From Thozetella sp. PMI_491 (Eukaryota; Ascomycota; Sordariomycetes; Chaetosphaeriales; Chaetosphaeriaceae): DNA of 64,000 nucleotides. The stretch is from positions 310,001 through 374,000 of the forward strand of contig MU270048.1 of NCBI GenBank assembly GCA_021432635.1, read 5' to 3'. Both the position numbers and the translations under genes were made by a program. Shown in pieces: positions 61,550-62,603 of the stretch (its first letter is position 1; each line of letters starts with the position of its first letter). Below the pieces are notes generated by a model. The model was given only the letters and a program-made list of their open reading frames with translations. It ran no database searches and was not told the DNA's origin.

Positions 61550-62603
61550 TCACTTCCGGGCCTGAAACTTCTGGTTCCTAGACTTCAATAGCTCCGAAAA
61601 TCCATTAGCGCTCATATTCCCCATGTAGATAAAACTCCGGTCGCGAGCCTCGTTCTCCCTGAAGACATGGTTCTTGGAATTCGGCCTGGGGTCAATGTCC
61701 CCCATTTGCACGTCAGCGTCGTCAAAGGCCTTGTTTGCCGTGTACTCGTGGCCTTTCCCTCCCTTGCCGGACTCAGCTGCGGGGAAGTCCTGAGGGGTGC
61801 CGGTCATCATGGGGAGCGTGACCGTTTCGATTCCTCTGGCGAGTGTGAGCTGGTGAGACATGTCGAAGGGCGGAGCAAGACACGAGACGTCCTTCGGCTG
61901 CGTTAGTGAGTTACCTAGCAACCCGATTTCGAAAAGACAAGTTCGCTTGAGTGGATCAGAAGGCCGGGATCTCCAGGGCTATGGCCTCTAGATCACAATG
62001 GGGAGTAGCTCCGAACAGCGCCGTCCGGACCACACTCCAGACCACAAGCCGGGGAGGGTGTGTGTTCGAGGGACGAGGAGACTCACCGAGACGCAGAGAG
62101 AGGCAATTCCGGATCTTTCGAGGTTGGAGATGAAAAAGTCGAGCTCCTCAATCTTCTTGCCGAACTTCTTATCTTTAAATGCCCAAGCTGCTGCCATTCG
62201 GATTGAGGAGATAGCCTGCAGTGGCTCCTGCGGTTGGTCGAGTTCCCGAAAGGCGACGGAAATAAAGGTGGGGGGCTAGGCTGCATTGCTCCTCCAGCCC
62301 TTGGAGCCTGATGGCCTTTTCATACCGTACTTCTGGGCTAGGCTGACTGCGGTGCCTCAAATTGGTCTGGATGTGCATCAGACACTCCATGAAAACTGGC
62401 TGCTCCTGGTCTGGGCGACAGTGGAGGCTCGCTCCGCCCTCTTTCTCGATCACCAGCCTCAGAAACTTACCATACAGATTGTACCGCACCTGCAGCAGCT
62501 TGAGCTTCGCCGCGAATACGTCGTACTCCGGGTTGTAGTTGCACATTGCGATAACGTCCGCGACGGCGAAGTTTGGACCGTAGGACAAGGTGATGATGGG
62601 CAT
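61550..62603 (-). CDS. Candidate HeLo-like protein with two HET-s-type amyloid motif repeats
   Basis: A split gene inferred from frames and splice sites: exons 62471-62603, 62331-62410, 62087-62227 and 61550-61897, about 233 residues. The last intron is long (189 bases) and the start could also be 62660. The N-terminal part resembles the HeLo (prion-inhibition and propagation) helical domain: EYDVFAAKLKLLQVRYNLY early, and WAFKDKKFGKKIEELDFFI near the end of the domain. It is shorter than a typical HeLo domain (about 118 against about 220 residues), so an upstream exon is missing or it is degenerate. The C-terminal exon carries two copies of a motif, H-[EV]-[YF]-x2-N-[KE]-A-x-D, then VQMGD (repeat 1, 61685-61750) or IYMGN (repeat 2, 61604-61669), close to the HET-s amyloid repeats. 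In HET-s/HET-S such repeats template a beta-solenoid prion that triggers membrane-targeted cell death (known). Function here is inferred. Confidence 0.5.

Follow-up and report, generated by a model that had tools for sequence, protein, structure and literature searches.

HET-s of Podospora anserina serves as the model for prions that have a normal role and is thought to stem from a disabled killing domain of HET-S; its HeLo fold is complete and was inactivated by point changes. The cited passage of PMC7885112 speaks of 'point mutations' and poses in print the question of whether killing domains were lost in other amyloid-signalling subfamilies. In HET-S, according to the cited sections of PMC3531502, an N-terminal segment of about 34 residues is expelled and then inserted into the membrane, and the prion function of P. 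anserina HET-s does not require its HeLo domain. The repeats of this class (HRAM) are defined in the cited part of the 2015 survey by Daskalov, Dyrka and Saupe (PMC4518210) as two 21-residue units with glycine at position 19 and hydrophobic residues at positions 5, 8, 10, 16 and 18; histidine at position 3 marks HRAM3, and the loop between the units measures 6-18 residues in 154 of 155 survey proteins. In this work, we are analyzing a gene located in a window of 64,000 nucleotides (the whole stretch, C34:310001-374000) of the 72.3-Mb genome of Thozetella sp. PMI_491 (Chaetosphaeriales, Sordariomycetes), which has three exons on the minus strand, with the ATG at 62603 and the stop ending at 61550.

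On balance, and with moderate confidence, we assign this gene to the HET-S/HRAM amyloid-signalling group, as a diverged representative nearest to HRAM3 and with a reduced HeLo domain, whose repeats would be templated and whose product would propagate, titrate or relay a signal and not kill. As judged from its sequence, it combines paired repeats in the HRAM register, a HeLo helix placed upstream in the proper order, and colinear similarity to an intact HeLo and HRAM3-type paralogue. The sole protein found for the gene in public databases, GQ53DRAFT_826234 (referred to as P0002), comprises 251 amino acids and is annotated 'hypothetical protein'; according to the deposited annotation, the C-terminal frame is spliced onto the upstream exons, and the frame is open over 251 codons, with neither stop nor frameshift. 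Exon coordinates were obtained by fitting P0002 onto the window. We confirm that the observation made at 61550-62603 in the original prediction is real and that its gene borders are exact, as follows from the ATG, the stop and the P0002 fit; the gene is, however, not hidden as the prediction had it, since it was annotated already.

The repeat pair lies near the C-terminus and consists of two 21-residue units with a loop of 6 residues, which is inside the HRAM range. Repeats r1 and r2 are identical at 7 of 21 positions, and both carry histidine at position 3, the HRAM3 mark, and glycine at position 19 (G202 and G229, 27 residues apart). In both repeats the core positions 5, 10 (with alanine counted), 16 and 18 are hydrophobic; position 8 is occupied by asparagine in both, and position 15 by D in r1 and F in r2, instead of the R or K preferred in HRAM3. 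By residues 3 (His) and 19 (Gly), the repeats come nearest to HRAM3. Membership in the canonical HET-s class (HRAM1) was rejected on account of H, not N, at position 3 and of the protein giving no match to PF11558 (HET-s 218-289) up to E 10. For the broader assignment to the HRAM group the missing PF11558 match is weak contrary evidence, since this model matched just 38 of the 155 double-repeat proteins in the surveyed set (cited part of PMC4518210).

Statistical support for the pair was assessed by shuffling the last 114 residues of the protein. The self-similarity of the two repeats was attained by 7 of 10000 shuffles, and the score with HET-S pair matrices, built from 112 of 120 homologues (8 were omitted because their repeats contain gaps), by none of 5000; with a single pooled matrix the count was 4 of 5000. 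With templates from the HRAM3-type paralogue none of 20000 shuffles attained the observed score of 54 (shuffle maximum, 50). The absolute score with the HET-S pair matrices is 3.7 bits, far under the family median of 89. When all 752 stop-free frames of at least 50 amino acids in the window were scored, the pair ranked first both with the HET-S templates (3.7 versus -6.3 for the next best frame) and with the HRAM3-type templates (54 versus 26), and it ranked second by plain self-similarity, after a Ser/Pro-rich frame.

The HeLo part is less well preserved. Pfam HeLo (PF14479) reaches 12.2 bits (E 0.16) on the deposited model and 12.2-12.7 bits overall, under the cut-off of 23.2, and hhalign against 56 HET-S homologues, thinned by hand from 120 of the 234 found, gives a probability of 10.7 over 55 columns. 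A hidden Markov model (HMM) of the HET-S family scores 8.3 bits on residues 1-137, which none of 3000 shuffles attained (maximum, 4.1). The 'WA' helix sits upstream of the repeats, where HeLo order predicts it. By the placements on HeLo, the part ahead of helix 2 is about 11 residues shorter, and the stretch that separates this helix from the WA helix is shorter by about 33. The N-terminal HeLo segment (about 34 residues) is not above chance, its score being attained by 567 of 5000 shuffles; no match to a HeLo N-terminal profile was obtained in P0002 (0.0 bits) or in the frames of 6 kb from 62001 (window positions 62001-64000 plus 4 kb beyond the window), the positive controls scoring 131 and 97.5 bits. 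The N-terminal hydrophobic peak of 1.30 (residues 3-19) is at or above that of just 5 of 118 homologues.

The layout proposed in the original prediction, in which helices related to HeLo precede a pair of amyloid repeats related to HET-s, is supported by these data. As to its details, the pair of aligned segments and the 27 residues from Gly to Gly stand, the unit being 21 and not 22 residues long; the relation of the repeats to HET-s is borne out by templates and shuffles, with HRAM3 and not canonical HET-s as the nearest class; and of the HeLo-like helices the WA helix and, weakly, helix 2 were recovered, the N-terminal segment not being recognizable. The reduced domain agrees with the suggestion of a short, possibly degenerate or regulatory HeLo part. 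The Pfam models that had been named as a check on the prion-forming and HeLo domains gave no match and a sub-threshold score, respectively, and the term 'execution protein' finds no backing, as the segment that carries this activity in HET-S cannot be recognized.

Coordinates of the gene features in the window
Feature	Residues	Position	Strand	Remarks
Repeat r1, KGHEYTANKAFDDADVQMGDI	184-204	61694..61756	-	H3, Y5, A10, V16, M18, G19, D20
Inter-repeat loop		61676..61693	-	6 residues, between r1 and r2
Repeat r2, KNHVFRENEARDRSFIYMGNM	211-231	61613..61675	-	H3, F5, A10, I16, M18, G19, N20
Tail	232-251	61553..61612	-	Gly-Phe after r2, where HRAM proteins have a Gly/aromatic segment
HeLo 'WA' helix	93-128	62117..62224	-	HeLo positions 138-173; 0/5000 shuffles; only Pfam HeLo stretch, sub-threshold
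HeLo helix 2-like	23-49	62457..62537	-	HeLo positions 34-60; E/D-Y ... R ... Y/W-G; weak, 44/5000 shuffles
Exon 1	1-91	62331..62603	-	N-terminus and helix like HeLo helix 2; P0002 fit
Intron 1		62228..62330	-	103 nt, GT...AG; deposited model; additional in-frame acceptors present
Exon 2	92-138	62087..62227	-	P0002 fit
Intron 2		61892..62086	-	195 nt; deposited model; donor GTGAGT, CTAAC just ahead of acceptor
Exon 3	139-251 and stop	61550..61891	-	P0002 fit

The closest relative in the same genome is encoded at C1:3037524-3038480 (minus strand), an intact HeLo protein (HeLo E 7.3e-37) whose repeats, with H3 and G19, are of the HRAM3 type. BLASTP of P0002 against this protein gives E 2e-4 over residues 106-231 (22% identity); the single alignment is colinear, extends from the WA helix of HeLo to the second repeat, and has both repeats in register. 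Its 27.3 bits were attained by none of 2000 shuffles of the whole P0002 protein, by a narrow margin (maximum, 26.2). Both proteins have H3 and G19 in each of their two 21-residue repeats, a short Gly/aromatic tail and an upstream WA helix, while the paralogue differs in its complete HeLo domain, V or I at position 8, R or K at position 15, an 11-residue loop and the tail YGGKGVW. In Table 1 of the 2015 survey (PMC4518210), Thozetella appears with a single HRAM1 and a single HRAM3 protein, and the latter is probably the C1 gene. In the one nearby NLR (NOD-like receptor) inspected, C1:3030642, the start looks by eye like HeLo sequence rather than an r0 motif.

PF11558 matches the genome at two places, on contigs C76 and C20, both of them HET-S homologues with HeLo domains and outside of the window. 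The C76 homologue is complete (C76:157929-158750, within the region C76:150000-159900), and the NLR located 4-5 kb upstream of it has an r0 motif in its N-terminus, at C76:152861; the two are a textbook NLR/effector pair. The C20 copy (C20:189222-192797) has stops in its HeLo frame. With HET-S/HET-s of P. anserina (HRAM1) and these two copies the window gene shares a HeLo-related domain followed by paired repeats and the repeat register, but it differs in having no PF11558 match, H3 in place of N3 and a reduced HeLo domain. The loop has 6 residues against 12 in the C76 protein, which is moreover adjoined by its r0 NLR. BLASTP of P0002 against the C76 protein gives a similar E value (3e-4), but with the repeats out of register.

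Further searches yielded little beyond the gene itself. The homologue searches, one with 629 candidates and another, for residues 180-251 (E up to 10), with 7, returned P0002 only, and a search of PDB sequences gave 0 matches. A whole-genome search with the repeat pair found the window copy alone; with exon 3, it found this exon and one match of E 0.89 at C4:247604-247762, which spans query residues 10-61, ahead of or at the edge of r1, and has an internal stop. No publication was found that names the GQ53DRAFT gene.

Supplied with the 56 homologues, AlphaFold2 places strands at residues 191-193, 198-201, 218-220 and 225-228, in the repeat register, with predicted local distance difference test (pLDDT) values of 71-88 in 10-residue blocks across the repeats; the resulting two-rung solenoid appears only when HET-S homologues are supplied and is not formed without an alignment. 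The top Foldseek match of the model, and the best structural counterpart of the modelled repeats, is the fibril of P. anserina HELLF (HRAM5, 6eka; probability 0.99, template modelling (TM) score 0.74 on the target, root-mean-square deviation 2.2). HELLF itself differs from the window protein: according to the cited part of PMC7885112, its domain is HeLo-like and the NLR FNT1 lies next to it. Upstream, the model has a helix at residues 25-53, and helices are predicted at HeLo-like places also without homologues. A HeLo domain structure is absent from the VIA-align listing, which by the tool's own note proves nothing.

The original prediction had proposed looking beyond position 64000 for an NLR gene with a matching motif. 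Among the NACHT, NPHP3_N and NB-ARC matches listed, none falls inside the window or within 17.8 kb after its end, and the nearest of them on the contig lies at C34:109351-109845, about 262 kb away. We also compiled 170 NLR places by hand from the lists, dropping duplicates and rows preceded by an effector domain, and scanned 100 of them; an r0 motif like the window repeats was not found in the 600-base stretches upstream of these 100. The missing adjacency is no strong objection, because an adjacent NLR accompanies 98 of the 155 survey proteins (cited part of PMC4518210), being common and not required, and because non-adjacent pairs are relatively most frequent for the HRAM3-like NLR motif in the cited part of a later survey (PMC9815663).

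By analogy with the class, the C-terminus would be natively loose, and a seed with a compatible motif would convert it into a two-rung beta-solenoid; candidate seeds are the r0 motif of an NLR and a relative in its amyloid state. With less confidence, we suppose that the protein would spread the amyloid signal, titrate it or pass it on without itself killing, as a HET-s-like non-executing prion, a decoy or an adaptor. We judge this role likelier than killing because the membrane-inserting N-terminal HeLo segment is not recognizable, and the protein is probably templatable but not executing. In this it would resemble the non-executing HET-s allele, with repeats present and execution probably absent, but in the window gene the HeLo domain itself is reduced.

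The same gene could encode a functional executioner whose HeLo domain evolves fast; its N-terminus would have diverged past recognition yet still insert into membranes upon templating, as in HET-S. The uninterrupted three-exon frame, the moderate hydrophobicity of residues 3-19 and the HeLo-like helix placement predicted even without homologues speak for it, but we regard it as unlikely in view of the N-terminal segment, which is at chance level and, judged from where helix 2 is placed, shorter by 11 residues, the loss of about 33 residues ahead of the WA helix and a hydrophobic peak that few homologues fail to surpass. We are similarly disinclined to see here a decaying copy, i.e. a former HeLo and HRAM gene that is shedding its domains, has no function and keeps its frame open by luck. 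Such decay would explain the reduced HeLo domain, the divergent positions 8 and 15, the lack of a neighbouring NLR among the matches listed and of any close relatives found, and it has a precedent in the C20 copy of the same genome with its in-frame stops; it accords poorly with 251 codons free of stops and frameshifts in the deposited model and with the glycines and core positions 5, 10, 16 and 18 being retained in both repeats despite divergence elsewhere.

A chance likeness, in which a small protein outside this class merely happens to contain a short repeat, is already disfavoured and seems to us highly improbable. It could draw on the absence of any Pfam match above cut-off, on the low hhalign probability and on the second, not first, rank of the pair by plain self-similarity, but several tests converge on the same residues and on the correct order of parts. 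Returning to the divergent HRAM member that we favour, it is tempting to see in it a natural HRAM3-class prion or decoy, gene-encoded and non-executing, and so a second case beyond HET-s in which an amyloid-controlled cell-death protein lost its killing part and kept its infectious one, with an intact HRAM3-type HeLo protein alongside; this more specific proposal is a tentative and rather doubtful one.

The protein may accordingly be a prion-like switch or decoy and not a killer. As a small, concrete candidate accompanied in its genome by an intact relative, the gene makes the published question of killing-domain loss testable. It also illustrates that diverged amyloid-signalling members can evade Pfam models, PF11558 giving no match and HeLo being sub-threshold here.

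Some candidates were rejected in the course of the analysis. Alternative splice models with a first intron of 55 or 115 nt were dropped for the deposited model, the Pfam outcome being unchanged, and the frames 62629-63258 and 62877-63350, considered as lost HeLo exons, have neither a Pfam match nor a match to the HeLo N-terminal profile. The 17.8 kb past position 64000 contain an amidase gene, a bZIP gene and, by eye, a multicopper oxidase. The NLR repertoire of the genome is large, with at least 151 NPHP3_N, at least 87 NACHT and at least 30 NB-ARC matches in lists that overlap. In the upstream scan, the N-terminus of an NLR on C22 near 310444 (minus strand) turned out to be an HRAM1-type r0 motif beginning at its Met. 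The C20 HET-S copy is flanked, on the other strand, by the start of an r0-like N-terminus, and in-frame stops also occur in a NACHT match at a distance of 15 kb. In the window, about 10 kb from the gene, a 935-aa frame on the minus strand (49052-51859) contains a HET domain (heterokaryon incompatibility; PF06985, E 5.9e-29).
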